Below, piece by piece: positions 5,448 through 58,194 of a DNA stretch of 64,000 bases (position 1 is the stretch's first letter; every line of letters begins with the position of its first letter). Both the position numbers and the translations under genes were made by a program. The notes under the pieces were generated by a model. The model searched no databases and was not told the origin of the DNA. It worked only from the letters and a program-made list of their open reading frames with translations. Source of the DNA: a virus; IMG/VR virus record IMGVR_UViG_3300034283_001774, positions 1 through 64,000 of that record; one strand, 5' to 3'.

Positions 5448-5833
5448 TGGCGAGAAAAGTACCAAATATCAACAAATCAAATATTCTTCAAAAAAGAGAT
5501 AGATTGGCATTTAAACAATTTGTTTTAGATGTTAATATTGATACATTCATATATTCATTTAGTCCAGATTATATAAATTTAGATGAAAGTGGACAACTAT
5601 TTACATTATATCTTTTAGATAAAAAGTTTAATATAGATATTTTGGAAATAGATAGTGTGAAAGATTATATTGATGTATATTTATTTGGAGTAAAACAACC
5701 TCAAGATAGATATGAAATTCGTGTAGATGAAAATAATATAGAGGTTACATTTATTGTTCCTATAACATTAGCTCCTGCTTCCGTTGTGGCAACTGATTTT
5801 GAAATAAAAGGTAAAATATCTGATATACTATAA
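5447..5833 (+). CDS. Small structural protein, paralogous C-terminal domain
   Basis: A 128-residue protein, start and stop both in one-base TAATG overlaps with neighbours. Residues about 70-128 (YIDVYLFGVKQPQDRYEIR, then IEVTFIVPI, then FEIKGKISDIL at the end) repeat the layout seen in the two preceding genes. It is directly followed by the first giant fibre gene, which begins with the same MAR start. A plausible role is an adaptor between neck or tail and fibres, but nothing in the sequence proves it. Confidence 0.6.
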   Translation: MARKVPNINKSNILQKRDRLAFKQFVLDVNIDTFIYSFSPDYINLDESGQLFTLYLLDKKFNIDILEIDSVKDYIDVYLFGVKQPQDRYEIRVDENNIEVTFIVPITLAPASVVATDFEIKGKISDIL

Positions 5834-25300: not shown

Positions 25301-28300
25301 ACCTGATGCGATTGAAAACTTAGAGTTGGCTAAAATTAACTCTGGTTCTGGTGTAGCAATTATTGACCCAACTAAATTAGATGTAAACGTACCAATTACG
25401 GCAGCAAGATACGATGGTGATGGTAGTGGATTATTTAATATCCCTGCCGAAGCATTAGAAGATTTACAATTAGATAGAATTATATCTGGATCTGTTGAAG
25501 CTGTAATTTCTCCAAACAAAGGATTGGAAATAAATACATCCGTTAGAATATTCTCTGGTTCATTAGCAGTGAGTGGTGGAATATTTGTAACTGGTTCTGA
25601 TGTTGTACTTCAATCCGGTAGTAGATATGTTGGTGATGGTAGTGGATTAAGAAATATCAATATTGCTAATTTAGCATTTGAAACGGCTATATTAAAATCC
25701 GGATCTGTATTCGCTGAAATATCTCCTGATTTAGGATTCAGAGTAAGTACATCGGCATCAATAGATGGTGATTTGGATGTTGTATATGATATAACTGCAC
25801 ATAACATATCTGCAAGTGGTACAATATTTGCACCAACTATTAGTGGTTCGTTCTTGGGTACATATAATTTTCAAGGAGTAGGACCTACTGCAAGTGCTGA
25901 ATACGATATTTTACGATATGATGAAGATAGAGGATATTTTGTACCTCAACCTGAAACATCATTAACTGAAACTGTATCGTTTAGTAATGTAAGCGATTTG
26001 ACAATTGTACACAACTTAGGAATTTTATATCCTATGGTTCAAGTGTACGCAACTGGTTCGGAAGACCAAATTATACCTGGCACTGTTAAATCAATTGATG
26101 AAGATACAATCCAAATTAAATTTGCTGGATTAACTTCCGGACATGTTGTGATTGGTAGTGGTGGCTCATTGATTAATGGTACAATTCCTGGTGATAGAGT
26201 ATTTGGTGAAGTTCTTTCTGCATCATATGCACGTAGAGCTGAAGTTGCTGTATCCGTTCAAGGATTTGATTCAGCATCACTTGCATCATTATCGGCTTCA
26301 TTGGGAGATTCATCACAATATGTGAGAAACAATCAAACATCATCAATGGCAGTGTTTAGTGCTGTAAGTTCTTCTTACGCATTAACCGCATCTTTTGCAT
26401 TAAACGGTGGTGGTGGTGGAACTGAATTATTTATTTATCATACCAGTTCGTTGGTAAAATCTCAAACTGCAAAGATAAACTTTAGTGGTTCTGGGGTAGA
26501 TGTGATTTCATCTGGTTCTGATGGCGTATTAGTAACAATCAACGGTGGAGCGGCTCAAACTTCACTTACGGCATCTTATATATTATCAACCGGTGTAGAT
26601 GGGCCGTTAGGAATGGATAGTATTTCTTATTCTGTAAACGCATTAACTGCTTCATTTGCACTTAATTCTGCAAATACTGACACATCTTCATTCTTAAACA
26701 TCAATACAAATCAAACAATAAACGCATCACTTACAATTAGTGGAAGTTTAGGTGTTAGTGGTAGTATAATGCTTGGTGGAATCGTATCGGCATCATATGA
26801 TGAGGTTGTAACGTGGGACCCAATAACTAAAAAATTAGGATATAGAAACGTAGCAGCTGCGGTTGGTTCATCTGGAACAGGTGGTTCATCTGGTTCTTCT
26901 GGTTCATCCGGATTAACGGGAACATCTGGTACATCTGGAAGTTCCGGTTCATCTGGTAGTTCGGGAAGTAGTGGAAGTTCTGGTATAGATGGTTCATCTG
27001 GTTCATCTGGTAGTTCAGGAAGCAGTGGAAGTTCTGGAACAACAGGAACATCTGGAAGTTCTGGTTCATCTGGAAGTTCAGGCTCATCTGGTAGTTCTGG
27101 AAGTAGTGGAACATCTGGTTCATCTGGTTCTTCTGGAACATCGGGTAGTAGCGGCACGAGCGGCACATCTGGTACTTCCGGTTCAGATGGTAGTTCTGGT
27201 TCATCTGGAACATCCGGTTCATCTGGTTCATCGGGAACTTCGGGAAGCAGTGGCACATCTGGCACATCTGGTTCATCGGGTAGTTCAGGAACATCTGGTA
27301 GTAGTGGTACATCCGGTTCATCTGGAAGTGGTGGTTCATCTGGTAGCTCTGGTTCAACTGGTTCTGCAGGAACTTCTGGTACTTCTGGTACATCTGGTTC
27401 ATCTGGAAGTTCTGGTTCATCTGGAACATCCGGGTCATCGGGAACATCTGGTAGCTCTGGAACCTCTGGTACATCGGGTAGTAGTGGTACATCCGCATCA
27501 TCTGGTAGTGGCGGTACTGCCGGCACATCAGGAAGTTCTGGAACCTCTGGCACAAGCGGCACATCTGGAACTTCTGGTTCATCTGGTAGTGGAGGCACAT
27601 CGGGAAGTAGTGGTACATCGGCATCTTCTGGTACTGGTGGTACTGCGGGTTCATCTGGTACATCAGGAACCTCTGGCTCATCTGGTAGTGCTGGTTCAGC
27701 AGGAACATCGGGAAGCTCTGGAACATCCGGGTCATCTGGTTCCGATGGTAGTGGTGGTTCATCTGGTACAACTGGTACTTCTGGTAGTTCTGGTACAACT
27801 GGTTCAGCAGGTTCATCTGGTACATCGGGAAGCTCTGGTACATCCGGAGAAGATGGTTCATCAGGAACTTCTGGAAGTAGTGGTTCATCTGGTTCGGCAG
27901 GAACTTCTGGTACGAACGGCTCTGCAGGTACATCTGGTAGCTCTGGTTCAAGTGGAAGTTCAGGAAGTAGTGGTAGTGCCGGTTCATCTGGTTCATCTGG
28001 AAGCAGTGGCTCATCTGGTACAACTGGTTCTGATGGAACATCTGGAAGTAGTGGCTCATCTGGTACATCTGGTACTGATGGCACATCTGGAAGTAGTGGT
28101 TCAAGTGGAAGTAGTGGTTCATCTGGTACAACTGGCTCATCTGGTTCATCTGGAAGCAGTGGAAGTAGTGGAAGTTCAGGAGCAGATGGCACTTCAGGTA
28201 CATCTGGTTCAACTGGTACTGCAGGTTCATCGGGTAGTTCTGGTACCGATGGTTCATTTGGTACATCTGGAAGTTCTGGTTCATCCGGTACATCTGCAAC

Positions 28301-32630: not shown

Positions 32631-35600
32631 ATGAGTAGTTTTATAGGTATTGACCCAAATGGATTAAATCAAGTAAGTTCTAGCGTAATATCACTTTATG
32701 TTAGTGGAAGCCCTGTTATAAATGCTTCTCCAAATTCAATTAGTATCATAAATGGGATACCTTTTTCTGCTTCTAAAATTGAAACATTAATAATTGATAC
32801 TCCATCTTCGGAATCACTTACAATTAATGCAAATACATTAATAACAGGCTCAATATCAGCATCAATATTTAGAGGTGATGGTAGTGGGTTATTTAATATA
32901 CAAGCCGATTCAATTGGCGATATCAATAGAATAAAATCAGGTTCTGCAATTGCACAAATTTCACCTAATAACGGATTGGTAGTAAATGTACCAACAAATA
33001 TAAGTGGTGGATTAACTTTAACTGGAAATGCAAATGTAACCGGAAATGCTAATATAATTGGTAATATTAATGTTAGTGGTAAAATCACATCAACTGAAAT
33101 AAGCACAACATTAATTTCATCTTCTGTAATATATTCATCTGGTTCAAATAAATTTGGTGATGCAACTTCTGATAAGCATGAATTTACTGGAAGTGTAGCA
33201 ATTAGTGGTTCTATATTTGTTGGAACTCCTGATACAATACCAACCGATAACACAACAAATGAGGTGTTGGTATTAAACACAACTACTGGTAGAATTAGTA
33301 GAAGATTTGCAGCAGCAACATCAGGTACTTCAGGTACTTCTGGTACAAGTGGTAGCTCTGGTTCAACTGGTTCAGCAGGTTCATCGGGAACTTCAGGTTC
33401 ATCTGGAAGCAGTGGTTCATCTGGAAGCAGTGGCACATCTGGTTCTTCTGGAACTTCGGGTAGTAGTGGCACATCTGGCTCATCTGGCTCATCTGGAAGT
33501 AGTGGAAGTAGCGGAAGTAGTGGTTCATCAGGTTCTTCTGGAACATCGGGAAGTGGTGGTTCTTCTGGTTCTTCTGGTACATCTGGTAGTGGAGGCTCAT
33601 CGGGAAGTTCTGGTTCATCTGGAAGCAGTGGCACATCGGGTTCTTCTGGTACATCCGGTTCATCTGGAAGTAGTGGAGTATCCGGTAAAGATGGTTCTTC
33701 TGGTACATCTGGTAAAGATGGTACATCTGGTATAAGTGGCTCATCGGGTAGTTCTGGTACTTCCGGAACTTCAGGAAGTGGAGGTTCAGCCGGTTCATCG
33801 GGAAGTTCTGGTATATCTGGAGGAACGGGAACACCTGGTACATCAGGTTCTTCTGGTACATCTGGTACATCTGGTAAAGATGGTACATCTGGTTCATCGG
33901 GTTCATCTGGAACATCGGGAAGTGGGGGTTCATCTGGTTTAACTGGAGCCGGTGGTGGAAGTGGTTCATCTGGTTCATCAGGAAGTAGTGGCTCATCTGG
34001 TTCTTCTGGTTCATCAGGAAGTAGTGGAACATCTGGAAGTTCTGGTTCTAGTGGATTGGGTGGAGCTAGTGGAAGTAGTGGTTCATCTGGAAGCAGTGGC
34101 ACATCTGGTTCATCTGGTTCATCGGGAACTTCTGGTTCATCTGGAACAAGTTCAAGTGGTGGAACGGCTGGTACATCTGGAAGTAGTGGTACATCTGGTT
34201 CTTCGGGAAGTTCTGGTAGTTCTGGACAAAGTGGTTCAAGTGGAAGTTCAGGAAGTAGTGGTAAAGATGGCGCAGTTGGAACATCTGGTTCTTCAGGTTC
34301 ATCTGGTACATCAGGCTCTTCTGGTTCATCTGGACAAAGTGGTTCAAGTGGAAGTTCTGGAAGTAGTGGTTCATCTGGAGTATCCGGTACAAGTGGTAGC
34401 TCTGGTACCTCTGGTTCATCTGGAACAAGAGGCAGTGGTGGTTCATCTGGAAGTAGTGGAACATCTGGAAGTTCTGGTTCATCTGGCGTATCTGGAAGTA
34501 GTGGAAGTAGTGGAAGTAGTGGCACATCTGGAAGTAGTGGAAGTAGTGGCACATCTGGAAGTAGTGGAAGTAGTGGTTCATCTGGAAGTAGTGGGTCATC
34601 TGGAACATCTGGAAGCTCTGGTACACAAGGTACTTCGGGTTCTTCTGGTTTATTGGCATTAACTGGTACAACTGATAATGGTGTAATTACATTAAATGGT
34701 ACTGCACCAAACGGAACTGTTGAAAGTAATCTAACTTTTAATGGAACTTTATTAACCGTTACTGGTAATGCAATTATTACTGGTGATTTGACAGTTAGTG
34801 GTACAACAACTACGATTAATACTGAAACAATCCTATTAGCGGATAATATTATAACTCTTAATTCAAACTTCACAACGGGTACACCAACTGAAAATGCGGG
34901 TATTGAAGTTAGAAGAGGTTCATCATCAACTGTATCATTCTATTGGGATGAATCAAATGATAGATGGACAGCTGATAATACTTTATCGGTAAGTGGAAAC
35001 GTAGTTCTTACTGGTACAATTGATACTGGACAAGGTGCAACCGAAGTTTATTTAATGAATCAGAATATAAGAACAACTGATTCTCCAACTTTTGCTGGAC
35101 TTACACTTAATGGTGATTTAACTTTATCTTACACATATCCACGAATTAATTTAACGGATACTAATAATGATTCCGATTATTCTATTATAAATGCAGATGG
35201 TTCGTTTGTTCTTTATGATGTAACAAATAATGCAAATAGATTTACAATATCAAATACAGGCCTTTTAACTCATAGAAGTATAACGGGTGGTACTGCTGGT
35301 AGTACTGTAGCTAGTCATATTAAAAACTTCTCATTAGGCGGTGGAACTTACAATAGTGCGTGGAATAGTGGTAATTCCGTGATGTTGTATATTGAAGGAT
35401 ATTCAAATGATGCCGGTGATAGTGTTTATCCAGTTTATATTGAAGATGAAAATAATATAGTTGATTTTTATTTATTCTCTGGAACTGACCAAAGCTTGGG
35501 TACAAAACAGGCTTACATAGCAGGTAACACTGGTATAGGTACTGCACCAAATAACTCATATAGATTAAATGTTGGTGGTTCAATTAATATACCAAATGAC

Positions 35601-38600
35601 GGATTATTATCTGTAAATAATGAACCAAACACTTGGGGAGCAAGATTTAGAACAACCACTTCTACTACGAATTTAGGAGCACAACTTAAAAATATTATTT
35701 GGACAGGTGGGGGTACTAATGAAGGATTTGCCGTAAGTGGAGTTGGTACTGGTGGAGCTGCATTAGAAGTTAGAAACGATGGTATTGTTTGGGCAAAGAG
35801 TTCGGTATATTCAAATGCAGCCGGTAATGGTGGGGCATTTTATTTATCGGATACTGCAGCTGGTATTTATAGAGATAACACCTATGATGTAACCGTTATA
35901 CAAAATAATTCATCTGGTAATATATTAAACTTAGCAAGTGCCGGTGATGTTCGTGTAAGTATTGACTCTAATAATAATGATACCGGTGTAAGATTTATAG
36001 TTGGTAATAATGCAATTAAATCAACAAATGAATTATTCTCTGTAAACGAAAGTGGTACAGCATTTGCATCATCTGATTTTAGAGCACCAATATTTTATGA
36101 TTCAGATAATACATCATATTACACAAACCCGCTATCAACTTCTAGATATAACGCATTACAGGTAAATAAAACTTACCAAAACGAACAATTTATTGATGTA
36201 CCTGGTACATTTAATGGTAATAGAAGATGGGTAAGATTTAGTATTAGTAGATTTAATAGTGGTGGTTCTCCTGTCAGACTTTCGATATCTCGTGCAATTA
36301 CTGATAATAGTTCAAACCCGTATGGTGGTTGTACTGCAGAATTTGTAATCAATTCAAGAGAATGGCATAGTGGACAAGAGAATATGTGGTATTTTTATAC
36401 TGAACATGGTTCTTACAACGCTAACCAAAATCCTTATGGATATTATATCTATCAAGCTGGTCCAAGAGATTTAGCAAGTGGTGGATATTGGTTCTATATG
36501 TTATTATTAGATGGTGTACGATATAGAATGTCTGTATCTGCGGACATGAACTTTAATAACGATAATATTGGTTCAATTGAATATAGTGTAGCTGATCCGG
36601 GTGGAGTTCCAAGAGTTCCATTAGGTTCTGGTGTAATTGGTAACAATACAACTTATAATCAAACTACATCTACATATGCGATGCATGGTATTATGTATGA
36701 TTATGATGATAGAAACTATTATATTGACCCAAATAGTACATCAAGAATTAGAAGAACTAATTTAGTGGCAAGTGGTACGAGTTGGGATGATGGGTTAAAT
36801 CTTTATTCATCAGATGAAAGTAATAGATGGAATTTATTAGTTGATAATGGAGCAAGTGATTATTTAAGATTTGCGTATAATAACAGTGAAGATTTTAGAT
36901 TACAACCGGATGCTACTATTTCGTATAACTCAATGTACGCACCAATTTATTATGATTTAGATGATTCAACATATTATATGAATCCTGCAAATGGTGGATT
37001 TGTACTACAAGGTGGTTCATCTAATAGAGTTAAGTTTTATACAAATGATAGTGGATTTAGAGTTCAAAATGCAGAAGGTAATGGTGTTAGTGATGTGAGA
37101 TTGGGAGCTGCTTGGGGAGCACCTGGTGTTTACTCATCTACATACTTAATGTTGGGTGCTGAAAGTTATGTTGAGTTCAGAATTGGAAACTCACAAAAAG
37201 GATATATGGATAGTTCGTCTAACCTATACTCCTTTGGCTCAGTTCGTTCTCCAATTTATTATGATTACACATCTACTGCATATTATTTAGACCCGGCATC
37301 TACATCTAATCTGAATGAAGTTTACGCTTATTCTTATAGAGGTAATGGTAACGTTGGTGGAACGGGTAATGCATCTTGGCATCCAAATGGTATCTATTCA
37401 GCCGGATATAACTGGTTGTATGGTGGTATAAATGGCGGTGGTAATTCTGCTACAAATTTTAGTGATGTAAGAGCAAGTATATTTTATGATTACGATGATA
37501 CTGGATATTTCTTAAACCCAGCTTCAACTGCAACATCTTTAAGAATTCAAGGTGGTATTAAACAAAGAAACTTAGTTGGTAGACCATATGCGGTATGGGG
37601 TGCAGGTGGTGGTGCAACTGGTGCTGTAATTATTAAATTCCCTGGTGGAAGTGGTAACTATGGTATGATTCACGCAGTTATTGACATTTATGAATATAAT
37701 GGAAATGCTGCAGCAACTGTAATTGTTGGTGGACATAACTGGAATGGTGCTTGGTATAACTATAACGCAAACGTAGTTGGTTATACTGATAAGCCTGTAA
37801 GGGTTGGTTTTAAAGATGGTAGATATTGTATTGTAATTGGTAATGGTTCATCATCATGGTCTTATGGACAAGTTGTTCTTCGTAAAATACAAAATGGTGC
37901 ATATTACGATGGGGTGATGGATGTTGCGGAAGGATATAGTGCAAATATTGAATCGGATTCTTATTCTTGGATTTCAGGAGACCTTCAAATATTAAGAAGT
38001 AGATACATTTATGGTGTTGATTACGTTCAAGCTCCAATATTCTATGATACAAACTCTACATACTTTGGAGATTTCAGTTCGGAGATAAGAATGCCTTACT
38101 ACAATGGTGGTACAATGAGATTCAGAACGAATACACATTGGGATTCTGTTTCTGGTATCGATTTGATAGGTGTAGCTGGAGAATTCCGTATGAGTTCGGA
38201 TAGTGGTAACTTAAACCTTAGAGTTGATGGTTGGATTATAGGATATGATTATATTCAATCATTGGGAGCCGTTTATGGTACGATATATTATGACCAAAAT
38301 AATAGTGGATATTATGCAGACCCTGCATCTACTAATAACTTCAATCAAACGGAGCAAAATGGTAGAATGTGGTATAGCAACTATTTAGTAAGCCGTAATA
38401 GAGGTGGTATGATGGGTGATTACAATTCTACTGGTACCGCTGATAAAGTAATTTGGACAATTGGCGAAAGCTGGCCATTAGGAAATATGTATGGTTTGGC
38501 GTATGATTATGGAAGTGGATATGGCCATCATTTAGCATTAAGAGATAATGGTGCAACTTACTCTCGTTTCGGATTTGCCGGTGGTGCATTTATAGGTGGT

Positions 38601-41600
38601 ACTGTATCCGTTGGTGGAGCAATGTATGCACCTATTTACTATGATTCAAACGATGGTGGTTATTATGGTGACTTTGCATCGACATCTCGTACAAACTATA
38701 TTGTTGGTAATAGAATTAAATTAGTAAACAACGTAAATAATGACCCTCGTTGGGACTTCTCAGCATATGTAGTTGAAGCACAACACTGGTATGGTAACAA
38801 CTCATCTATGACAATGTATATGGGTGAGGGTAGTAATACAATTCAAGTACCGGGTAGTGGTGGTATAAGACCTGTAATTATTTACGATTATAATAATGCA
38901 GGATACTATCTTAATATGGATGGTACATCTAATTTATACGCAGTTACAGATTATACTCGTAGAGCGGCATTTAATTTAGGTAGAGAAAGAGGAAATCGTA
39001 GAGATATTACAAGTGATACAAACCACTGGACTGGTACAAATGGATGGGGAACATCTTATGGAACTTGGGCAAGTGCTTGGGAAGGTGGATTTAGTGGTTG
39101 GGATATTTGGGGTGGTGGCACTGACCACCCGCAAGGTGGTGGATATGTTCACGCTCAAGGTATCGTATCCGGACAACACTATGCAACCGGTGGTGGTGGT
39201 ACTGCTTATGGTTGGATGATGGTAGGAGCACACGATGCTGGAAGCCGTTGGTGGTTAAGAGGTAAGTGGGGTGGTACAACATATCCTTGGTATGAAATTG
39301 TATTATATGGAAGAAACGTTGGTGGTGGTGACCTTTATGCCGGTTATTGGTATGATGGAAACAACACTGGATATTATATAGACCCGAATGGTTCTTCGCA
39401 AATGAGTGCGGTTTATTCAGATAACTGGTTTAGAGCACAAGGATGTGCCGGATTCTATTTCCAATCGTATGGACGTGGATTATGGTCACCAGAGTGTGAG
39501 GGTAATCCTTATGGACACGTAGCAACAAACGGCGGTGGTAGAAACGGATGGGGTGGATATGGTATATTTAGCCGTTATACCTTAATGAGTACCGGTGGTG
39601 ATAACGTTGGTATGCATGACACTGCTAGAGGTTGGGTTTGGTATATGGAAGGTGGAAGGCTTCAAATGCATTGGGCTGGAAACCGTAGAATGGTAACTGA
39701 ATCGCATGGTGTTTACTTTGATGCAGATGCTAGAGCTTCTATATTCTATGACCACGATACTGGATACTATTTTGATGGTAATGGTACATCCAATATGAAT
39801 AGATTTACCGATAGAACAAAAGCTTCTATGGGTAATACCGCAAAATATAATTCACCTCGTTGGGATTTCACTGGTGATAGTAACTATTGGGTTGGTTCAA
39901 TGGGTTGGGGTACAACTGACCTTAACTCCGTTTGGAACTGGGGTAGTGGATTCTTTGATAGCTGGGGTAACCCTGGTAACCAACCAGCGGGTACATCTCA
40001 CTGGACTGGTATTCAAACGGCTCACTACACTTGTGGATATGGTTGTGGATATGGTTGGCAAATGGTTGGTGGACCTATTAGTGGATTATGGTTTAGAAAT
40101 GTTTGGTCTTCACCTTCTGGTTGGAGAAAAATAGCAATGTATGGCCTAAATGAATATTCTAATGATTTCTACGCTACAATCGTATATGATAGTAATAATA
40201 CAGGATTCTATTCAGACCCTAATGGTACTTCTGCATTAAGTAGAATTACTGTAGATTCTGAAATTATATCTAGAAATGGTTGTGGTAGAATTTACTTACC
40301 TGGAAATTTACACATAGATTCATATTGTGGATATGACATTTATATGCAGTATTACACCAATAGACCAACCAGATATTATGGATATATTGAAATGAATGGA
40401 TATGGTGGGTATGGATTTGGTGAAATTTATTCTAATATCTATTATGATAGAAATGATTCTGGATATAGATTAGACCCTAATGGTACATCTCAACTTCACT
40501 ATGTATTAGCAAATAACTGGTTCAGACCACAAGGATGTACCGGTGTATATTGGGAATCGTATGGTAGAGGTATTTGGTCACCGGAGTGTGAGGGTAACCC
40601 TTATGGACATATTGCAACTTATGGTGGTGGCAGAAATGGTTGGTATGGATATGGTGTGGGTAGTAGATATACTCTAATGAGTACACTGGGTGATAATATC
40701 GGTTTACATGATAGTGCTAGAGGTTGGATTTGGTATATGAGTGGTGCTGAATTGAATATGTACTATGCAGGTTCCAGAAGAATGGTAACAACCGGATGGG
40801 GTGTATATGTAGACCAATATTTGGAAGCAGGTGGTTCATTGAGAGCACCAATTTTCTATGATAACCAAGATACTGGATACTATTTAGACCAACACAATAC
40901 CGATAACCAAGGTTTAAGAATCAGAGGTGGTACACTTCACGGACCTAACTGGTGGTGGGGAGCTTATTTAAGAGTTGGTGCTAACAACCATATAGGTGAT
41001 TGGGCACAAATGTTCACATCAAACGGTAACTTACATATTGATGCTAGACCAGGATATCCAATGTACCTTAACTGGCACACCGGTAATACTGTTTTAGTAA
41101 ATTCCGATATACAAGCAAGAATTTACTATGATTTAGATGATACTGGATACTACTTTGGTTCTAGTGCAGGTGATGGTAGATTTAGATACACAAATACTAA
41201 TGGTGGATTCTCTCAGTCAAATAACCAATTCCAATTTAATGTAAATAGAGGTTATTATATGAACGATACTGCCAACTTACAGGCATATTCGGAAGGTAAT
41301 AACTCTGCATTCTTATCTTGGCATAAGACCGGTGTATTTGCAACTAATATGGGATTGGATGGTGATAACTGGATTCGTATTGGTGGCTGGTCAATGTCAA
41401 ATAACAGATGGCAGTTAAACGCTAGCGGTGACATGTATGCAGCTGGTAACGTTGTTGCATATTCATCGGATGAAAGATTGAAAGAAAATATTACTACAAT
41501 TAGTGATGCATTGGGAATGTTGAAGCAATTAAGAGGTGTTTATTTTGATTGGAAAGAGATGGTTGATTCGTTAGGGTTTAATCCAATTGATAGACATGAT

Positions 41601-41840
41601 ATTGGAGTAATTGCGCAAGAAGTTGAAAAGGTAATACCACAAGCAATTAAACCGGCACCATTTGATGCGTTAGGAGATGGTAAATCTATAAGTGGAGAAC
41701 ACTATAAGACAGTTCAATTAGAAAAGATTGTTCCTGTACTTATACAATCGGTTAAAGAACAACAAGAAATTATAGAAAATCAAAATAAACAAATTGAAGA
41801 ACTGAAAACAATAGTTTATAAAATTTTAAATAAAAACTAA
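32631..41840 (+). CDS. Giant tail fibre with collagen-like tract and S74 chaperone tail
   Basis: A 3069-residue ORF. Residues 1-230 are fibre beta repeats. Residues 232-673 are a Gly-x-y tract (GSS/GTS, rare KDG inserts). Residues about 680-1140 are TVTGNAIITGDLTVSG-type fibre domains. Residues about 1150-2850 contain 15 copies of an (A/S)-x-I-x-YD-x-(D/N)-x-TGYY-x-(D/N)P motif linking varied globular domains rich in Trp, Tyr and Gly, two of which are duplicated in alternating order (39021-40820). The end (residues 2946-3069) is an intramolecular chaperone of the endosialidase/S74 type with SSDERLKENI. Such domains trimerise the fibre and then cut themselves off. This is probably the receptor-binding long fibre. 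Confidence 0.85.
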   Translation: MSSFIGIDPNGLNQVSSSVISLYVSGSPVINASPNSISIINGIPFSASKIETLIIDTPSSESLTINANTLITGSISASIFRGDGSGLFNIQADSIGDINRIKSGSAIAQISPNNGLVVNVPTNISGGLTLTGNANVTGNANIIGNINVSGKITSTEISTTLISSSVIYSSGSNKFGDATSDKHEFTGSVAISGSIFVGTPDTIPTDNTTNEVLVLNTTTGRISRRFAAATSGTSGTSGTSGSSGSTGSAGSSGTSGSSGSSGSSGSSGTSGSSGTSGSSGTSGSSGSSGSSGSSGSSGSSGSSGTSGSGGSSGSSGTSGSGGSSGSSGSSGSSGTSGSSGTSGSSGSSGVSGKDGSSGTSGKDGTSGISGSSGSSGTSGTSGSGGSAGSSGSSGISGGTGTPGTSGSSGTSGTSGKDGTSGSSGSSGTSGSGGSSGLTGAGGGSGSSGSSGSSGSSGSSGSSGSSGTSGSSGSSGLGGASGSSGSSGSSGTSGSSGSSGTSGSSGTSSSGGTAGTSGSSGTSGSSGSSGSSGQSGSSGSSGSSGKDGAVGTSGSSGSSGTSGSSGSSGQSGSSGSSGSSGSSGVSGTSGSSGTSGSSGTRGSGGSSGSSGTSGSSGSSGVSGSSGSSGSSGTSGSSGSSGTSGSSGSSGSSGSSGSSGTSGSSGTQGTSGSSGLLALTGTTDNGVITLNGTAPNGTVESNLTFNGTLLTVTGNAIITGDLTVSGTTTTINTETILLADNIITLNSNFTTGTPTENAGIEVRRGSSSTVSFYWDESNDRWTADNTLSVSGNVVLTGTIDTGQGATEVYLMNQNIRTTDSPTFAGLTLNGDLTLSYTYPRINLTDTNNDSDYSIINADGSFVLYDVTNNANRFTISNTGLLTHRSITGGTAGSTVASHIKNFSLGGGTYNSAWNSGNSVMLYIEGYSNDAGDSVYPVYIEDENNIVDFYLFSGTDQSLGTKQAYIAGNTGIGTAPNNSYRLNVGGSINIPNDGLLSVNNEPNTWGARFRTTTSTTNLGAQLKNIIWTGGGTNEGFAVSGVGTGGAALEVRNDGIVWAKSSVYSNAAGNGGAFYLSDTAAGIYRDNTYDVTVIQNNSSGNILNLASAGDVRVSIDSNNNDTGVRFIVGNNAIKSTNELFSVNESGTAFASSDFRAPIFYDSDNTSYYTNPLSTSRYNALQVNKTYQNEQFIDVPGTFNGNRRWVRFSISRFNSGGSPVRLSISRAITDNSSNPYGGCTAEFVINSREWHSGQENMWYFYTEHGSYNANQNPYGYYIYQAGPRDLASGGYWFYMLLLDGVRYRMSVSADMNFNNDNIGSIEYSVADPGGVPRVPLGSGVIGNNTTYNQTTSTYAMHGIMYDYDDRNYYIDPNSTSRIRRTNLVASGTSWDDGLNLYSSDESNRWNLLVDNGASDYLRFAYNNSEDFRLQPDATISYNSMYAPIYYDLDDSTYYMNPANGGFVLQGGSSNRVKFYTNDSGFRVQNAEGNGVSDVRLGAAWGAPGVYSSTYLMLGAESYVEFRIGNSQKGYMDSSSNLYSFGSVRSPIYYDYTSTAYYLDPASTSNLNEVYAYSYRGNGNVGGTGNASWHPNGIYSAGYNWLYGGINGGGNSATNFSDVRASIFYDYDDTGYFLNPASTATSLRIQGGIKQRNLVGRPYAVWGAGGGATGAVIIKFPGGSGNYGMIHAVIDIYEYNGNAAATVIVGGHNWNGAWYNYNANVVGYTDKPVRVGFKDGRYCIVIGNGSSSWSYGQVVLRKIQNGAYYDGVMDVAEGYSANIESDSYSWISGDLQILRSRYIYGVDYVQAPIFYDTNSTYFGDFSSEIRMPYYNGGTMRFRTNTHWDSVSGIDLIGVAGEFRMSSDSGNLNLRVDGWIIGYDYIQSLGAVYGTIYYDQNNSGYYADPASTNNFNQTEQNGRMWYSNYLVSRNRGGMMGDYNSTGTADKVIWTIGESWPLGNMYGLAYDYGSGYGHHLALRDNGATYSRFGFAGGAFIGGTVSVGGAMYAPIYYDSNDGGYYGDFASTSRTNYIVGNRIKLVNNVNNDPRWDFSAYVVEAQHWYGNNSSMTMYMGEGSNTIQVPGSGGIRPVIIYDYNNAGYYLNMDGTSNLYAVTDYTRRAAFNLGRERGNRRDITSDTNHWTGTNGWGTSYGTWASAWEGGFSGWDIWGGGTDHPQGGGYVHAQGIVSGQHYATGGGGTAYGWMMVGAHDAGSRWWLRGKWGGTTYPWYEIVLYGRNVGGGDLYAGYWYDGNNTGYYIDPNGSSQMSAVYSDNWFRAQGCAGFYFQSYGRGLWSPECEGNPYGHVATNGGGRNGWGGYGIFSRYTLMSTGGDNVGMHDTARGWVWYMEGGRLQMHWAGNRRMVTESHGVYFDADARASIFYDHDTGYYFDGNGTSNMNRFTDRTKASMGNTAKYNSPRWDFTGDSNYWVGSMGWGTTDLNSVWNWGSGFFDSWGNPGNQPAGTSHWTGIQTAHYTCGYGCGYGWQMVGGPISGLWFRNVWSSPSGWRKIAMYGLNEYSNDFYATIVYDSNNTGFYSDPNGTSALSRITVDSEIISRNGCGRIYLPGNLHIDSYCGYDIYMQYYTNRPTRYYGYIEMNGYGGYGFGEIYSNIYYDRNDSGYRLDPNGTSQLHYVLANNWFRPQGCTGVYWESYGRGIWSPECEGNPYGHIATYGGGRNGWYGYGVGSRYTLMSTLGDNIGLHDSARGWIWYMSGAELNMYYAGSRRMVTTGWGVYVDQYLEAGGSLRAPIFYDNQDTGYYLDQHNTDNQGLRIRGGTLHGPNWWWGAYLRVGANNHIGDWAQMFTSNGNLHIDARPGYPMYLNWHTGNTVLVNSDIQARIYYDLDDTGYYFGSSAGDGRFRYTNTNGGFSQSNNQFQFNVNRGYYMNDTANLQAYSEGNNSAFLSWHKTGVFATNMGLDGDNWIRIGGWSMSNNRWQLNASGDMYAAGNVVAYSSDERLKENITTISDALGMLKQLRGVYFDWKEMVDSLGFNPIDRHDIGVIAQEVEKVIPQAIKPAPFDALGDGKSISGEHYKTVQLEKIVPVLIQSVKEQQEIIENQNKQIEELKTIVYKILNKN
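33324..34649 (+). repeat. Collagen-like Gly-Ser/Thr-Ser tract (about 442 aa)
   Basis: Same 9-base unit composition as the longer tract at 26865-30122, with strict Gly every third residue. The two tracts share DNA words such as GGTTCATCTGGAAGCAGTGG, so recombination between the two fibre genes is possible. Confidence 0.95.
36076..41180 (+). repeat. 15 copies of the YD-TGYY-DP fibre linker motif
   Basis: Copies include APIFYDSDNTSYYTNP, APIYYDLDDSTYYMNP, SPIYYDYTSTAYYLDP, ASIFYDYDDTGYFLNP, GTIYYDQNNSGYYADP, ATIVYDSNNTGFYSDP and ARIYYDLDDTGYYFG. They come every 60-150 residues and separate unlike domains, as a repeated interdomain beta element of a trimeric fibre would. Most are followed by an (N/S)GTS or AST turn. 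Confidence 0.88.
39021..40820 (+). repeat. Duplicated A-B-A-B domain pair in fibre tip region
   Basis: Domain A (about 39021-39320) starts NHWTGTNGWGTSYG and recurs at about 39881-40152 as NYWVGSMGWGTTDL. Domain B (about 39420-39735) has NWFRAQGCAGFYFQSYGRG and WSPECEGNPYGH and recurs at about 40511-40820 as NWFRPQGCTGVYWESYGRG and WSPECEGNPYGH. B copies are much better conserved than A copies. The high Trp/Tyr/Gly content and paired cysteines fit ligand-binding domains. Confidence 0.8.
41466..41837 (+). other. S74 intramolecular chaperone domain
   Basis: The last 124 residues of the third giant fibre carry the S74 signature SDERLKENI (Ser2946, Asp2947), an Asp-Ile-Gly-Val-Ile-Ala-Gln-Glu-Val-Glu strand and a C-terminal coiled coil (IQSVKEQQEIIENQNKQIEE). 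In known members, cleavage occurs just before the conserved Ser after trimer folding, so the mature fibre would end near residue 2945. Confidence 0.88.
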
Positions 41841-53095: not shown

Positions 53096-55807
53096 ATGTC
53101 ATATCCAGTATTTGGTAGTATTGATACCGATATCTATAACAACATACAAACATCAGGTAAAGCACCAACCGGGGGAAGTGTAGATATAACACAGGCTTCA
53201 ACCGAATTGGTGCCGTGGGTTCGTATTATATCAGCAACCGATAGATTACAAGCGGGAAAATCTGGTTCTTTTGGATTGATACTTTCTTCAAATCCAGATG
53301 TACCAATGTTTGCGGACTACCTTTCATTTACAAAAAATGCAAGTAATCAAATTACTGCGGTAAACCAAACACCGAGTTTATATGGGGGAAGATATACAAG
53401 TGGTATGCTTGGTGTGGATTTTAGTGGAAAGGCTATTTATCCGTATCTAACCCCATGGACAGGAGACCTTGTATTAAGACCTGGACCGTTGGTAACTGCT
53501 ATGGATATAAAGGAAGGTAAAGACCAAATATCAAGACATTGTACTTTAACTGTTAAATGTTTTTCACTTGCGCAGGCCGAACTTTTACAAGAATATTTAA
53601 TGGAACCGGGGCATACCCTCTTTGTTGAATATGGATGGAACACCGATGCATCAATTGCGGAATGTATAGATACTGGCACTCCTGGAACAATCATATCTGA
53701 AGCAACCGATGTTGGATTGGATTATAATTTATTACAAAACAAACGAATAAGTTCATACGGTGATTATGATGCGTTTTATGGATTTATAGTGGGTGGTTCT
53801 TTGAGTTCGGAAAATGATATATTCAATTTAACAATTAATTTAAGAGGTGCACCAGGATTACCAATATTTTTACAAGGGCAGCACACTTATTTAGAATTGG
53901 ATAAAAGTACGAAACAGGTTAAAAATATACCAGCAACACAGACGTATTCAATAAATGATATTGATGAGGTTGCAACTGGTGCAGGTAGAGCTAAAACAAT
54001 GGGTGGTAGAAGGTATAAATGGATGTTTAACAAACTACCTGGAAATAGACAAACAGCTGAAGTTAAAGCTATAATTCAAAAGGTATATGATACTGACGAA
54101 TATGGTTGGTGGGATTTACTAAATTTTGATTATAAAGTTTCACAAGAAGTGGCTAATGCATTAGCTGATACATTTATTACTTCTATAAAAGAATTATTTG
54201 GTCAAAAAGAATTTAGTGTTGGTGGATTAACCGTTCCAAAAGATAAATTGATTTCTGAAAATCGATACATAAGATTTGGGGCTGCACTTGATATACTTAA
54301 TGCAAATAATGGATTGTGGGCATATAAAATGGGAACTCAATCGGTTACTTGTAGAGTAAATAATTATGGATTGATTGGAGCATTTCCAAATATGTTTTCT
54401 ACCAAACCAAGTAAATTAATAATACCTGGAAAAATGCCGGATTTTTATCAATATTATTGCAATCCAACTCCTGTATCAATTCAGGATATTTTAACAAAAA
54501 ATTTTATAGATAATCGTATAGATGGATATGCGTTTCAAGCGAGTTCTGGCAAATACGTGCCCACACTATTATCTTTTGTACAAGACGTGGACATACCTGG
54601 TACTATTACCGCAGGTGGTTATTATAATGGATTTTATGAAAAAGCTGGGTATTATGGAAAATTAGAAAATTTATACATAAATTTTAATGTATTTATAAAC
54701 GCATTAAAAAACTCATCAAATAAATCAATGAGAGATGTGTTGGTTGAAATGTGTAACGAAATGTCATCTGCTGTAAACTCATTTTGGAATTTACAAGTTA
54801 TTGAAATACCAATGGAGGGCGGTGTTAAATTGCAAATAATTGATGAAAACTGGAGAGGATATCTTGCCAATAAGAAAAAAACTGTAAAAGAATTTTTCCA
54901 TTCAGGAGAGCAATCAATCTTTTTAGAAGCAACTTTGGATATAGATATACCACAAGAAATGACAAACCAAATTGTTTTAAAAAGAGAAGATTATTCAAGT
55001 AATCCTGATTCACATGGATTGGATATGGGAGGATTATTTGGCAAATCAAAAGATAGATTTTTTGATGAAGTGGATTATAGAAAAACCACACTAACCACAG
55101 CATCATCTCCCAAAAAAGCTTCAACACCATCTCGTGCTCCAGCAGATGTACAAAAAGAAATTGATACATTATTAGCTAGTTTAGTTAAAACTAGTAAAAC
55201 ATCGGGATTACGAAGTGGGATTACAACTGTAACTGATACATATAAAGATTCCGCAGGTAATCTTGTTTATACCGAAACACGAACTGGTGGTATAGTGAGT
55301 TCAAATAAATATAATCGTGGTATATCGGAAGCGGACAAATTATTAGATTTACGAAAAGAACTTGCTACCCTAACGGCCGCGGCAAAGGATGTAGCAGAGA
55401 CGGCTTTGAGTACAAATTTGAATAAAATTGATGTTATACCAAATCCAATTACAAATATAATTGTACCAATGGCATTGAAACCCGCAGCAGGTTTTACGGA
55501 GTTTAATAAAAACTTTAAAATATATTGTTGCGATGATACTCAATTATTTGACATTATGAAAAATAATGCATTTGAAGCATATAGTGGTGTTGAAAAAACA
55601 TCACACCCACTACCGATAAAATATACTTTTAAAATTTTGGGAAAAAGCGGTTTAAGAAGAGGTGATACTTTTAATGTTATTGGTATTCCTAAAAAATATA
55701 GAGACTTTGGATTTTTCCAAATAACACAGGTAGAACAAACCGTTGAGGGTAACAGTTGGTACACAACCGTAATCGGACAATATTTTCAGCAATTAAAATC
55801 AGTATAA
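53096..55807 (+). CDS. Baseplate hub-type structural protein
   Basis: A 903-residue protein. N-terminal part: WVRIISATDRLQAGKSGSFG, then RPGPLVTAMDIKEGKDQISR and CTLTVKCFSLAQAELLQEYL with LFVEYGWNTD, a layout I associate with hub proteins (gp27/gpD-like beta barrels) of T4-like marine phages. The C-terminal part (LPIKYTFKILGKSGLRRGDT, then FNVIGIPKKYRD, FFQITQVEQTVEGNSWYTTV) is the typical end of a hub barrel domain where the membrane-facing spike attaches. A linker rich in Ser/Thr/Lys at about 665-760 joins them. It overlaps the next gene by one base (TAATG). No lysozyme domain is visible. Confidence 0.68.
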   Translation: MSYPVFGSIDTDIYNNIQTSGKAPTGGSVDITQASTELVPWVRIISATDRLQAGKSGSFGLILSSNPDVPMFADYLSFTKNASNQITAVNQTPSLYGGRYTSGMLGVDFSGKAIYPYLTPWTGDLVLRPGPLVTAMDIKEGKDQISRHCTLTVKCFSLAQAELLQEYLMEPGHTLFVEYGWNTDASIAECIDTGTPGTIISEATDVGLDYNLLQNKRISSYGDYDAFYGFIVGGSLSSENDIFNLTINLRGAPGLPIFLQGQHTYLELDKSTKQVKNIPATQTYSINDIDEVATGAGRAKTMGGRRYKWMFNKLPGNRQTAEVKAIIQKVYDTDEYGWWDLLNFDYKVSQEVANALADTFITSIKELFGQKEFSVGGLTVPKDKLISENRYIRFGAALDILNANNGLWAYKMGTQSVTCRVNNYGLIGAFPNMFSTKPSKLIIPGKMPDFYQYYCNPTPVSIQDILTKNFIDNRIDGYAFQASSGKYVPTLLSFVQDVDIPGTITAGGYYNGFYEKAGYYGKLENLYINFNVFINALKNSSNKSMRDVLVEMCNEMSSAVNSFWNLQVIEIPMEGGVKLQIIDENWRGYLANKKKTVKEFFHSGEQSIFLEATLDIDIPQEMTNQIVLKREDYSSNPDSHGLDMGGLFGKSKDRFFDEVDYRKTTLTTASSPKKASTPSRAPADVQKEIDTLLASLVKTSKTSGLRSGITTVTDTYKDSAGNLVYTETRTGGIVSSNKYNRGISEADKLLDLRKELATLTAAAKDVAETALSTNLNKIDVIPNPITNIIVPMALKPAAGFTEFNKNFKIYCCDDTQLFDIMKNNAFEAYSGVEKTSHPLPIKYTFKILGKSGLRRGDTFNVIGIPKKYRDFGFFQITQVEQTVEGNSWYTTVIGQYFQQLKSV

Positions 55808-56172
55808 TGGCAATAGATATTATTACATATGTTAGAGCTAAATCAACAAATGAAGATGAAATTACACAATTAGATATAAAGACACATGTCCCAACTCCGG
55901 ATGAAAATGATTATGCAGTAGGGTATATTGTTAGATACTTTTTACAAAAGGTAAACGATACGGACGCTACTATATATGAAATAAGTAATTACTTTCAGGA
56001 TGCAGTACAATCGAATGGGCTATATAAAATTCAATCTATAAAATGGAGAATTATCGGAACTCCACAAGATATTATGGATTCTAATAAAAAATCAATTTCT
56101 TTAGCATTAGAAAACATGCCAAAACTTTCACTATATCTTCCAAATCTTTTGCAGTTTGCAAAAATAAAATAA
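55807..56172 (+). CDS. Small conserved tail/baseplate protein
   Basis: A 121-residue protein; the ATG at 55807 overlaps the upstream stop and is preferred over earlier in-frame codons inside the hub gene. Features: DYAVGYIVRYFLQKVNDTDA, IYEISNYFQ, then IKWRIIGTPQD and the end MPKLSLYLPNLLQFAKIK. I recall the same GYI-RYF, LYxxxxxxWRI-G and NLLQF pattern in small virion proteins of T4-like phages, but no function is known to me. It closes the baseplate unit, and a host-type promoter begins at the base after its stop. Confidence 0.62.
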   Translation: MAIDIITYVRAKSTNEDEITQLDIKTHVPTPDENDYAVGYIVRYFLQKVNDTDATIYEISNYFQDAVQSNGLYKIQSIKWRIIGTPQDIMDSNKKSISLALENMPKLSLYLPNLLQFAKIK

Positions 56173-56204
56173 TTTGGTAATCTAAATTATTATTCGTATA
56201 TTTA
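56173..56204 (+). promoter_or_regulatory. Bacteroidota-type promoter for the tmRNA
   Basis: TTTG at 56173-56176, 20 bases, then TATATTTA at 56197-56204. This matches the Bacteroidota sigma-A consensus (TTTG at -33, TAnnTTTG at -7) except the last base. Transcription would start about 7-8 bases downstream, a few bases before the mature 5' end at 56216. Confidence 0.75.
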
Positions 56205-56215
56205 CATAATTATAT

Positions 56216-56602
56216 GGGGATGCCATGGATTTGATTGCGATGAGAATGGTAGTACCACACGTAGACAGAAGTGCTAGATGTCTTTAAATCTGTACAAAAC
56301 AATAACTGACGTAGAATTATCTACTTGGACCTTTGATGATGTAATGTCATTCATGGGTGCTGATTTAGCTGTAGCAGCCTAATCACCTCCCGTATCACTC
56401 ATGGGGTTTAAAAAAGAAGTGAACAAAAAGGAGCTCTACCTATCGGCTCTCTAAAACTGATAGGTTGGTGGAAAGCTGTACTAACCATACGGCCCCAATT
56501 ATTTTGGAAAGTAAATAAGATTAAACTTTATCCTAAACGTGTGACATGCTGGTATTATGATTACTTCGTAAGACAGGGGTTCGATTCCCCTCATCTCCAC
56601 CA
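56216..56602 (+). ncRNA. ssrA: Transfer-messenger RNA (tmRNA)
   Basis: A complete one-piece tmRNA of about 387 bases. The 5' end GGGGATG (56216-56222) pairs with CATCTCC (56592-56598) as a 7-bp acceptor stem with one G-T pair, followed by discriminator A and an encoded CCA. The T arm is AGGGG-TTCGATT-CCCCT. The 5' part ATGGATTTGATTGCGATGAG is the conserved D-region of tmRNA. An H-type pseudoknot is clear at 56431-56465: GAGC pairs with GCTC and ACCTATC with GATAGGT. A tag frame ends GCA GCC TAA at 56382. tmRNA with SmpB rescues stalled ribosomes and tags the product for proteolysis. Phage-encoded copies are known but rare. A tRNA-Ala alone is excluded by the separated acceptor halves and the tag frame. 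Confidence 0.94.
56308..56382 (+). other. Predicted tmRNA tag reading frame
   Basis: From the likely resume codon GAC at 56308 the frame runs 24 codons to TAA at 56380-56382. It encodes DVELSTWTFDDVMSFM followed by GADLAVAA. The Ala-Ala end and the upstream AATAACT (E. coli has AATAGTC before its resume codon) fit a tag; the exact resume codon is inferred. Most bacterial tags are 8-15 residues and end ALAA; this one is long and ends LAVAA. Confidence 0.65.
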
Positions 56603-56610
56603 TTTTTTTG

Positions 56611-56648
56611 AATCCTCAATTTACATTTGGTAATTTGGGGATTTTTTC
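56611..56648 (+). terminator. Terminator after tmRNA
   Basis: AATCCTCAATTT (56611-56622) pairs with AATTTGGGGATT (56632-56643) with one G-T pair and one mismatch, then a T run. It overlaps the promoter of the next unit, so termination and initiation share the same 45 bases. Confidence 0.8.
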
Positions 56649-56657
56649 GTATATTTG
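56626..56657 (+). promoter_or_regulatory. Bacteroidota-type promoter upstream of the polymerase unit
   Basis: TTTG at 56626-56629, exactly 20 bases, then TATATTTG at 56650-56657, a perfect match to the Bacteroidota housekeeping consensus. The TTTG box lies in the loop of the tmRNA terminator. The ATG of the first gene is at 56673, leaving a very short leader. Confidence 0.8.
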
Positions 56658-56672
56658 TATAAATTTGTTTAT

Positions 56673-56939
56673 ATGGGAAGGTGGCCAGAACCGGCAAAAG
56701 AAAAGCCTACAAAGTTTGAAATAACCTATAAAGATGATGATGGGTGTGAATCCGTATGGAAATATGATTTGAAAAAATTTCCAAATGGACCGATAGAGGT
56801 TACAAATAAGTTTCCGCCTCATTATGAGAAGGCGTTGAAAAAACAACAAAAGGAAGCTAAATTGGCAAAAAAGCAATCAACATTAGAAAAAGCAAAGGCT
56901 GCAAATAAGAATGATAAGGATAGTAGAAAATATTGGTGA
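56673..56939 (+). CDS. Small hypothetical basic protein before the polymerase
   Basis: An 88-residue protein; ATG 56673 is preferred over a TTG 18 bases earlier that lies within the promoter. The N-terminal half (PTKFEITYKDDDGCESVWKY) is probably a small beta sheet; the C-terminal half is a Lys/Glu/Ala-rich helix (YEKALKKQQKEAKLAKKQST). It overlaps the polymerase start by 29 bases, suggesting coupled translation. No family recognised. A DNA- or polymerase-associated role is only suggested by charge and location. Confidence 0.6.
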   Translation: MGRWPEPAKEKPTKFEITYKDDDGCESVWKYDLKKFPNGPIEVTNKFPPHYEKALKKQQKEAKLAKKQSTLEKAKAANKNDKDSRKYW

Positions 56940-58194
56940 GATTGATGAATTAAAGAGGATTTTGGAAACTGAACCATCGGTTTGGTATCCTATGTGGGTG
57001 GATAATGATAAACATCCACGAAACACACATATATCCTTTATTTTCGTAAGAACTTTGACAGACCGATATATTCTACCACATCAACATACAGACTCTCTAT
57101 CACTCTCTAAATCACTAATAGAGGGTATCTTAAATACAAAAGGGGATAAGTGGGTATTCCAAAAGAAAAAGCTACTACAATCGTTTCAAAATATAAGGGA
57201 AGGATTGAATGACATTGATACCGCTTATTTCTTAAAAACAGGTGAAACGATAGACTACCAACAACCACTACAACACCTGGTAGCTCCCTTATTACACAAA
57301 GGTTACAAAGAAGATGTCATTCAATCTATTCCCATTCTTAAACTTGCGGAAGCGATAGAACCGGAATTGAGAAAAACTTATAGACAAAAATCTAAAACTT
57401 ATAATTGGTACAACGATATCTTCTTACCCATCCTTTCAGAGATTGAGGGATATGGGGTTCGGGTCGATGAGAAAAAATTTATTGATAGATGGCCACAAGC
57501 CCAGAAACACTTAAAAGGAGATGTGGTATATACCGAATACAATCCATTCACCGTAACCGGTCGTCCATCCAATCGTCATGGCGGTGTGAACTATGCGGCA
57601 TTGAATAAATCGGATGGTAGTAGAGATGTGTTTGTATCGGATGGGATATTCTTACAAATGGATTATAATGCGTATCACCCTCGTCTTATCGGTAAGTTGA
57701 TTAAGTTCGAAATGCCGGATGGTAACGTACACCAATGGTTAGCTGACCAATATGGGTGTAGTGTTGATGAATCCAAAGGGGTTACGTTCCAATTATTGTA
57801 TGGTGGTATTGATGATGATTTCCGCCAAATTCCATATTTCAATGCCGTAGCTGATTATATTGATAACCTATGGATTGAAACACAAAAGCTGGGATACTTA
57901 CAAACACCACATCGTATTATTCCTTTGGAGTGGATTGAAGGGGCTAACCCACAAAAAGTATTTAACTATCTACTACAAGCGGTTGAGACTGAGATGAACG
58001 TAGATGTTATGGGAAAGGTATTGGGTTATATAAAGGGGAGTGATATAAAGTTTTGTTTATACACATACGATTCATTCCTTTTTGATGTTCCTACTGATGT
58101 GGATAAAGAATTGGTTAAAGGATTGAAGGAAATCATTGAAGGTAGTGGGTTTCCTGTAAAAGCAAGTTGGGGTTTAGATTACGGAAAGTTATAA
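56911..58194 (+). CDS. Compact family A DNA polymerase
   Basis: A 427-residue protein with the palm motifs of family A (Pol I-like) polymerases. Before motif A is TVTGRPSNRHGGVNYAALN (the T-x-TGR-x-S block). Motif A is LQMDYNAYHPRLIG with catalytic Asp251. Motif B is KGVTFQLLYGG starting at Lys289. Motif C is YTYDSFLF with Asp387 where Pol I has HDE, so the two metal-binding Asp residues are present but the Glu is replaced by Ser. Residues 1-110 may be a degenerate 3'-5' exonuclease-like domain lacking its acidic motifs; no 5' nuclease. T4 itself uses a family B enzyme, so this is a distinct replication solution or an accessory polymerase. Its start codon lies inside the previous gene. Confidence 0.82.
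   Translation: MIRIVENIGEIDELKRILETEPSVWYPMWVDNDKHPRNTHISFIFVRTLTDRYILPHQHTDSLSLSKSLIEGILNTKGDKWVFQKKKLLQSFQNIREGLNDIDTAYFLKTGETIDYQQPLQHLVAPLLHKGYKEDVIQSIPILKLAEAIEPELRKTYRQKSKTYNWYNDIFLPILSEIEGYGVRVDEKKFIDRWPQAQKHLKGDVVYTEYNPFTVTGRPSNRHGGVNYAALNKSDGSRDVFVSDGIFLQMDYNAYHPRLIGKLIKFEMPDGNVHQWLADQYGCSVDESKGVTFQLLYGGIDDDFRQIPYFNAVADYIDNLWIETQKLGYLQTPHRIIPLEWIEGANPQKVFNYLLQAVETEMNVDVMGKVLGYIKGSDIKFCLYTYDSFLFDVPTDVDKELVKGLKEIIEGSGFPVKASWGLDYGKL

Follow-up and report, generated by a model that had tools for sequence, protein, structure and literature searches.

What does a phage do with a tmRNA gene of its own, and why should the peptide tag that it encodes be more than twice the length usual in its probable hosts? 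The gene in question lies on a virus contig from IMG/VR, 134,411 bases long, within the 64,000-nucleotide stretch of DNA analysed here, to which we refer as the window. Phage tmRNAs as such are already known, and by every feature testable here the locus is a member of the tmRNA family. What is new is its tag, a 24-residue peptide with a conserved insert, which an earlier note on this DNA had missed and which is the real point of interest. We consider it fairly probable that the gene yields a functional phage tmRNA whose tag contains a docking peptide, and that this peptide changes the fate of rescued chains compared with the host tag.

A complete one-piece tmRNA gene

ARAGORN reports a single RNA gene in the window, a tmRNA on the + strand with its tag frame at gene positions 93-167, and the covariance model RF00023 agrees on exactly the same boundaries, 56216-56602. 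The covariance match spans model positions 1-374 of 374 with 83.1 bits (E 9.5e-31), well above the gathering score of 47. The acceptor stem, T arm and encoded CCA are all present (Table 1), bearing out the full one-piece phage tmRNA that had been proposed in the earlier note. Both stems covary. Among 20 aligned tmRNA sequences the G3-U70 pair is kept in every one, the fifth pair of the acceptor stem is A-U in 15, G-C in 4 and broken in 1, and two pairs of the T arm have changed on both sides in 11 and 8 of the 20 sequences, respectively. Across the same alignment, RNAalifold found 17 of 50 pairs for which at least one sequence had changed on both sides with pairing kept, and placed just two 3-pair hairpins inside the tag.

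The H-type pseudoknot PK1, which the earlier note called clear, is confirmed through its relatives and not through this sequence, in which it is weak: the best H-type score was 20.5 against 19.9 in shuffled sequence (scored on locus L028, whose letters there are identical to those of the window). PK1 recurs at the same place in relatives with other letters, S1 reading AGACA/TGTCT, AGTGG/CCACT, AGGAA/TTCCT or AGGCG/CGCCT. Over 35 representatives the mean score was 23.1 against 19.1 in shuffles, with 18 of the 35 scoring in the top tenth of their own shuffles.

Table 1. Position of the tmRNA gene, its parts and its neighbours in the window
Feature	Position	Strand	Evidence
138-aa ORF directly upstream of the tmRNA	55756..56172	+	no Pfam/PHROG match
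Promoter of Bacteroidota type (TTGGTA, 17 nt, TATATTTA), with the 5' end of the tmRNA about 12 nt further on	56174..56204	+	
One-piece tmRNA gene (ssrA), CCA encoded	56216..56602	+	ARAGORN; RF00023
5' side of the acceptor stem (GGGGATG), paired to 56592-56598 with an alanine-type wobble, G3-U70	56216..56222	+	
Pseudoknot PK1: S1 AGACA 56263-56267 / TGTCT 56279-56283; S2 GTGC 56271-56274 / GTAC 56292-56295	56263..56295	+	
Tag reading frame, resume codon GAC to TAA: DVELSTWTFDDVMSFMGADLAVAA	56308..56382	+	ARAGORN; codon-level conservation
Conserved tag insert, residues E3 to A18 (ELSTWTFDDVMSFMGA), possible capped mini-helix	56314..56361	+	
Host-like C-terminal end DLAVAA	56362..56379	+	
T arm AGGGG-TTCGATT-CCCCT	56575..56591	+	RF00023; both-sided changes
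3' side of the acceptor stem (CATCTCC), followed by A and the encoded CCA	56592..56602	+	
Second copy of the tmRNA-type promoter, before the next gene	56627..56655	+	
427-aa ORF downstream of the tmRNA	56911..58194	+	PHROG 17 'DNA polymerase'

The phage, its probable host and the setting of the gene

The phage is T4-like, as had been thought: its tail sheath matches PHROG 23 at 3.2e-74, and the record encodes a family-B DNA polymerase along with a RecA-family protein. A Shine-Dalgarno signal was seen at 6 of 95 starts compared with 5.8 in shuffles, and TTG-N-TAnnTTTG promoters are located in the intergenic gaps of the record; the lack of the former and the presence of the latter we take to be Bacteroidota-type expression signals. 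The nearest deposited sheaths are those of a Microcystis phage (47%), an uncultured 484-kb phage (43%) and Flavobacterium phage immuto (51% over half). Together these signals and the Flavobacterium phage sheath agree with the earlier suggestion of a Bacteroidota host, which we regard as probable, the counter-signs being an encoded bilin reductase and the polymerase, whose nearest relative among deposited phages belongs to a Microcystis phage (47.7%).

No tRNA genes were identified in the phage record by ARAGORN. An smpB gene, for which the earlier note had suggested looking, was found neither in the record itself nor in any of 12 related records (which may be incomplete), so the phage presumably relies on host SmpB.

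The promoter ahead of the tmRNA is not striking alone, since the site at 56174-56202 is one of three promoter-like sites in the stretch, against 2.5 when shuffled. Among relatives, TTG-N17-23-TAnnTTT was present in 50 of the 57 distinct upstream sequences, where shuffling gave a mean of 3.5 and a maximum of 10. The sequence CGTATATTT marks a shared promoter class that includes the one of the tmRNA, and occurs in 14 copies on the + strand of the phage's own record (G000) and 0 on the - strand; 10 copies lie in gaps, for example at 56195, 56648, 64440, 65418 and 77275.

In 94 of 144 loci a homologue of the 138-aa ORF is found no more than 4 kb from the tmRNA, with 42-53% protein identity among the 12 nearest listed; for the 427-aa ORF the corresponding count is 62 of 144. 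The earlier note had placed the gene between baseplate and polymerase genes. Downstream, part of the 427-aa protein matches PHROG 17 'DNA polymerase' (3.6e-12), and the protein has no Pfam match, whereas the five upstream proteins tested gave no Pfam or PHROG match, leaving that placement tenuous, above all on the baseplate side.

Several other genes of the record deserve mention. Three giant ORFs of 4184, 3729 and 3069 residues are found upstream of the tail sheath (window positions 5833-18387, 19398-30587 and 32631-41840). A 396-aa RuBisCO-family protein is encoded at G000 98151-99341 (L048:14151-15341, + strand), with matches to PF00016 (6.1e-33), NCBIfam rubisco_III (1.6e-52) and, as best PDB match, the RuBisCO 3a13 (7.5e-37). 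It has KPK and KEDE stretches. RuBisCO carries a catalytic His-Arg where the phage protein reads FQ, and because of this replacement the latter is probably a RuBisCO-like protein. The bilin reductase is ferredoxin-dependent (PF05996, 1.6e-22), and among 70 proteins the record also encodes IscU or NifU, FolE, TerC or YkoY and a sulfotransferase domain.

The tag and its conserved insert

The window tag of 24 residues, DVELSTWTFDDVMSFMGADLAVAA, begins and ends in a host-like manner with some 14 residues between, and so resembles an extended host tag. Within the phage clade, tags range from 22 to 27 residues. The insert follows the motif E-x-S-x-[MWF]-T-[FY]-x-x-x-M-x-F-[VIM]-G and stands ahead of the host-like end, which is DYAVAA in most relatives as against DLAVAA in the window. 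Most phage tags end in VAA, YAA, LAA, IAA or MAA, which are of the ClpX type. The conserved places of the insert are rich in aromatic and large hydrophobic residues. AlphaFold2, given a 34-residue read-through frame, predicted at low confidence (mean pLDDT 66) that tag residues 9-16 are helical. Judging from the residues, T8-x-x-D11 could be a capping box and G17 could end the helix, in which case F9, V12, M13 and M16 would share one helix face.

Selection on the peptide among relatives

Loci from scans with motifs outside the tag were pooled with those from tag scans and re-anchored by RNA motifs, either at the 5' end or in the 3' half, giving an RNA-anchored set of at least 133 loci. Tags were read from a first codon of the G-A, G-C or similar kind, to which G-G was added for the gene-anchored set described below. 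Among the matches listed, 129 of the 133 loci carry the motif tag, with lengths of 22-26 residues. As many contigs are near copies of each other, distinct sequences were counted, which amounted to 44 coding sequences and 29 peptides.

Over these 44 coding sequences the entropy of the tag at the first, second and third codon positions was 0.395, 0.381 and 0.921, and the pooled pN/pS was 0.40 (0.24-0.58 by bootstrap over codons). The E and S of the motif are invariant in all 44, while M, F and G are kept in 43, and changes of tag length come as whole codons, in frame. High third-position entropy, the pN/pS value and in-frame length changes all indicate that the peptide is translated and kept.

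The four loci without the motif comprise two tmRNAs with other long tags (L056 and L119), a permuted tmRNA (L129) and one locus (L128) in which no RNA match was obtained. Within L119 the tmRNA lies at 6064-6414 (+; 73.6 bits) with the long frame GKNTSRVVSLGDNAQVEANMNKVFSLIREEVAVAA, and within L056 at 1405-1807 (-; 92.5 bits) with the long frame GNVLDKMAFSGLIRQEESVSVA. A further 13 loci were anchored solely by the 29-nt 3' end; these are tRNAs, other tmRNAs and unresolved cases, and two of them (L333 and L334) repeat L033 and L031. The motif frame is present in at least 193 loci.

Penetrance was measured with the downstream 427-aa protein as anchor, which is independent of both the RNA and the tag. 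Eighty of its 106 relatives were taken, and five with too little flank were set aside, leaving 75. A tmRNA is located within 2.5 kb of the anchor in 72 of these. In the other three, on contigs of 16-27 kb, no match was obtained near the anchor or elsewhere in these records. The 64 gene-anchored tags that could be read by script are all long, and the other eight, read by eye, have a long frame ending in FDYAVAA. The earlier note had described phage tmRNAs as known in only a small fraction of genomes; for this clade, on a sample of 80 of 106 relatives, that rarity is overstated.

A peptide-only pattern, LS[DE][MW]TF[DE]xx[MI]xF, retrieved 15 stretches, and all 15 proved to be tmRNA genes, 11 by ARAGORN and 4 by RF00023 above the gathering score. 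Because the pattern fixes several residues, their conservation in these stretches is by construction, and the free evidence is that every one of the 15 is a tmRNA gene. Their tags include DNTELSDWTFDDMMSFIGADYAVAA, GNVELSEMTFEDAIEFVNEYDMAA and DNNTVELSDMTFDSLMAFIGSDEAIAA; in one (L637) the motif is kept and the frame extends past the usual end. These tmRNAs sit in the backbones of other phages. Among the matches listed, a gene related to one of the window phage's occurs in 9 of the 15 loci, but the tmRNA has other neighbours there; its distance from a polymerase relative in L641 is about 5 kb.

Absence of the tag elsewhere

An exact search of 84,980 bacterial and archaeal genomes for the core tag pattern F-[VIM]-G-x-D-Y-A found no occurrence. 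The same pattern matches 92 of the 198 tag-study loci, and because it asks for D-Y-A it misses the DLAVAA tag of the window itself as well as EYAYAA variants. Retention of the insert over at least 193 loci, together with the lack of a core-pattern match in cellular genomes, indicates that the peptide itself matters to the phage. Two tags used as tblastn queries against 50,697 phage records found nothing up to an E of 10, while a 24-residue control query recovered its record at 2e-9. No PDB entry matched the tag, which thus has no known partner by sequence. Copying of the tag from a phage protein was ruled out, as the insert motif has no other occurrence in the six frames of the 134-kb record.

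Long tags of other kinds are found in viruses. From a sample of 120 viral tmRNA stretches, 82 were called, and 18 of those 82 tags have at least 20 residues, mostly of other sequence among the matches listed, so tag length alone is not special. The conserved insert appears confined to this clade and the phages found by the peptide pattern. We found no description of it in the open-access literature (bioRxiv being outside the scope of the search).

Comparison with host ssrA genes

Host ssrA genes were sampled from Bacteroidota genomes as sets of 12, 39 further and 95 further loci, 146 in all; five genomes gave no ssrA match (1 of 13 named ones, 1 of 41 and 3 of 99). The 146 do not include L346, a second match in one Bacteroides genome. 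ARAGORN called a tmRNA in 144 of the 146 loci, and 141 of the 144 tags have 8-10 residues, the commonest being GENNYALAA (39 times). Host tags of 14, 15 and 33 residues and a 10-residue call, DQVDKLNSVP, look miscalled and were kept unrepaired in the counts. Most Bacteroidota tags end in ALAA, AMAA or RLAA, and the commonest phage ends differ from these.

A quick tree was built from tag-free alignments, with the host rows thinned to every second usable one. In it a branch (98) sets 30 of the 31 D-type phage rows off from the 70 host rows, and another branch (98) does the same for the four GN phage rows. One phage row, L644, stands among unresolved branches beside host rows in this tree, which has several long branches. 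The comparison with Bacteroidota ssrA that the earlier note had suggested thus separates most phage rows from host genes. An AU test kept a single origin of all 35 phage rows (p 0.955), the constrained tree scoring better than the free one; since one origin is not rejected, we make no claim that the tag was swapped as a module between backbones.

A possible role for the tag

The RNA and its frame, the selection on the peptide, the synteny and the promoter are shown by the analysis, whereas activity, reliance on host SmpB, the helix, docking and the partner are inferred. On this basis our preferred reading runs as follows. The tmRNA would be a near-core gene of a T4-like Bacteroidota phage clade, transcribed from its own promoter, and its product would be charged with alanine and work with host SmpB. 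During infection it would enter stalled ribosomes and add a tag of 22-27 residues, in which a host-like end of the DYAVAA type would be kept for AAA+ proteases. The insert before that end would most likely form a short capped helix and act as a docking peptide that directs rescued chains towards one protease, adaptor or phage partner in particular. The fate of tagged chains would thereby be altered with respect to the 8-10-residue tag of the host. It is plausible, as the earlier note supposed, that the phage takes over ribosome rescue or tagging during infection. E, S, M, F and G hardly vary while third positions are free, a pattern that fits a binding peptide better than a spacer; a conserved peptide could also serve another end, such as tuning degradation.

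We suggest more tentatively that a widespread phage group reprograms trans-translation, using a two-part tag of docking helix and degron that is read by a specific partner. Candidates for that partner would be a non-default host protease, an adaptor or a phage protein. If this were true, ribosome rescue in infection would become a targeted sorting signal of the phage. The phage tag could, moreover, yield a new degron for Bacteroidota.

A special case of docking would be that tagged chains are diverted from ClpXP and read by Lon or a different host protease instead. Such a switch has a precedent in Mesoplasma florum, the longer ssrA tag of which is recognised by its Lon according to the excerpted texts of PMC9382460 and PMC9097571, and the aromatic and large hydrophobic residues at the conserved places of the insert would suit it. 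However, Mollicutes are without active ClpXP in the available portion of PMC9382460, whereas most phage tags keep a ClpX-type end. As such, ClpXP has probably not been given up by the phage, and such a switch seems unlikely.

The insert might instead have no partner of its own and simply extend or improve the degron read by the usual protease, either as an initiation region or as a spacer. Tag length does vary from 22 to 27 residues, and unrelated long tags exist both in the viral sample (18 of 82, among the matches listed) and in L056 and L119. Yet a spacer need not hold E, S, M, F and G nearly fixed over 44 coding sequences, and part of that conservation is also seen in divergent backbones, though the search pattern fixed several residues there. 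We therefore find this explanation doubtful.

That the tag protects or parks phage proteins, an altered end (VAA, YAA) and the helix serving to stabilise or aggregate chains, would agree with commonest phage ends that are unlike those of most Bacteroidota. The end is still degron-like, however, and relatives with ALAA exist, such as DEMSTMTFDSLMEFVGANEYALAA and several among the tags found by the peptide pattern, making parking quite improbable.

A decoy that captures host SmpB and blocks host trans-translation would resemble the tag-less form of phage DS6A, a tmRNA-like molecule that inhibits tmRNA according to the excerpted PMC11915505 and PMC4131195, and a tag-less form of 112 nt is also present in LR756508. 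Retention of the whole mRNA-like part and selection on the peptide at the amino-acid level make a decoy very improbable here.

Since the extra stretch sits within a structured RNA, it could have been kept as RNA structure with the open frame incidental. Its third codon positions are more than twice as variable as the first two, its length changes are in frame and RNAalifold gives it just two short hairpins, and we hold this to be highly improbable.

Finally, although tmRNA genes are often integration sites of genomic islands (PMC11915505, in the part available), the idea that the phage merely captured a host ssrA, or retains a functionless remnant of an attachment site, is rejected as vanishingly unlikely, given that the gene is complete, has a promoter of its own and is kept in 72 of 75 loci, its separation from 70 host genes on the tree, and synteny that held while the upstream neighbour dropped to 42-53% identity (12 nearest listed).

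Comparison with known systems

The docking-peptide tag that we favour can be set beside several known systems. Phage tmRNAs have been noted in mycobacteriophages (Bxz1, Wildcat and others), Bacillus phage G, Melnitz, SAR11 myophages and huge phages, so far as the excerpted sources go. Like the present gene they are phage-encoded; they serve other hosts, and a conserved tag insert is not described for them in those excerpts. The tmRNA of Melnitz is given there as two-piece, in contrast to the one-piece form here. Some huge phages carry SmpB according to the accessible part of PMC7162821, whereas none was found in this phage. The RNA of phage DS6A is likewise a phage-encoded tmRNA relative touching on trans-translation, but in the portions of its sources at hand it has no tag and inhibits tmRNA, while the window RNA has a tag frame under selection.

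Other unusual tmRNAs were observed in the course of the analysis. The 484-kb phage LR756508.1 encodes, at 414804-414915 (L486), a 112-nt tmRNA-like RNA (RF00023, 58.2 bits) that is too short to contain a tag and resembles the DS6A form, as well as a full tmRNA at 92434-92880. The second tmRNA of Bacteroides sp. 224 (L346 1501-1879, on a 320-kb contig; RF00023, 78.9 bits, uncalled by ARAGORN) lies between tRNA genes, perhaps on a prophage or other mobile element, and its frame reads as a 34-residue tag of another sequence, GKNKIKAWGNKVSAKAANVINMFAQPAVRFSAAA. L031, L033 and L576 represent another phage group with a different long tag of about 35 residues from the resume site (ADEDMSDLLAEAEYIFNNADEFLGGVEEEYCALAA in L031), of which ARAGORN reports the last part alone.

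With the standard one-piece tmRNA of Bacteroidota, the phage gene shares an acceptor stem with G-U, the T arm, the pseudoknot, a TAACT-type resume site and a tag ending in A-A before the stop. It differs in carrying a tag of 22-27 residues with an insert, where host ssrA tags are of the GENNYALAA or ADDYSYAMAA type with about 9-10 residues, and in that the phage genes are set apart on the tag-free tree. Overall, the commonest tmRNA tag length is 10 in the excerpted text of PMC11915505. Mesoplasma florum, as far as the excerpted literature describes it, has a comparably long tag of 27 residues, parts of which are required for recognition and whose end is modified. It differs in being a cellular system, in bacteria without active ClpXP, with the end NYAFA, and reading by Lon is likened to the phage case by analogy alone. 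For a lengthened tag that has gained a new reader, M. florum would by that analogy be the best precedent.
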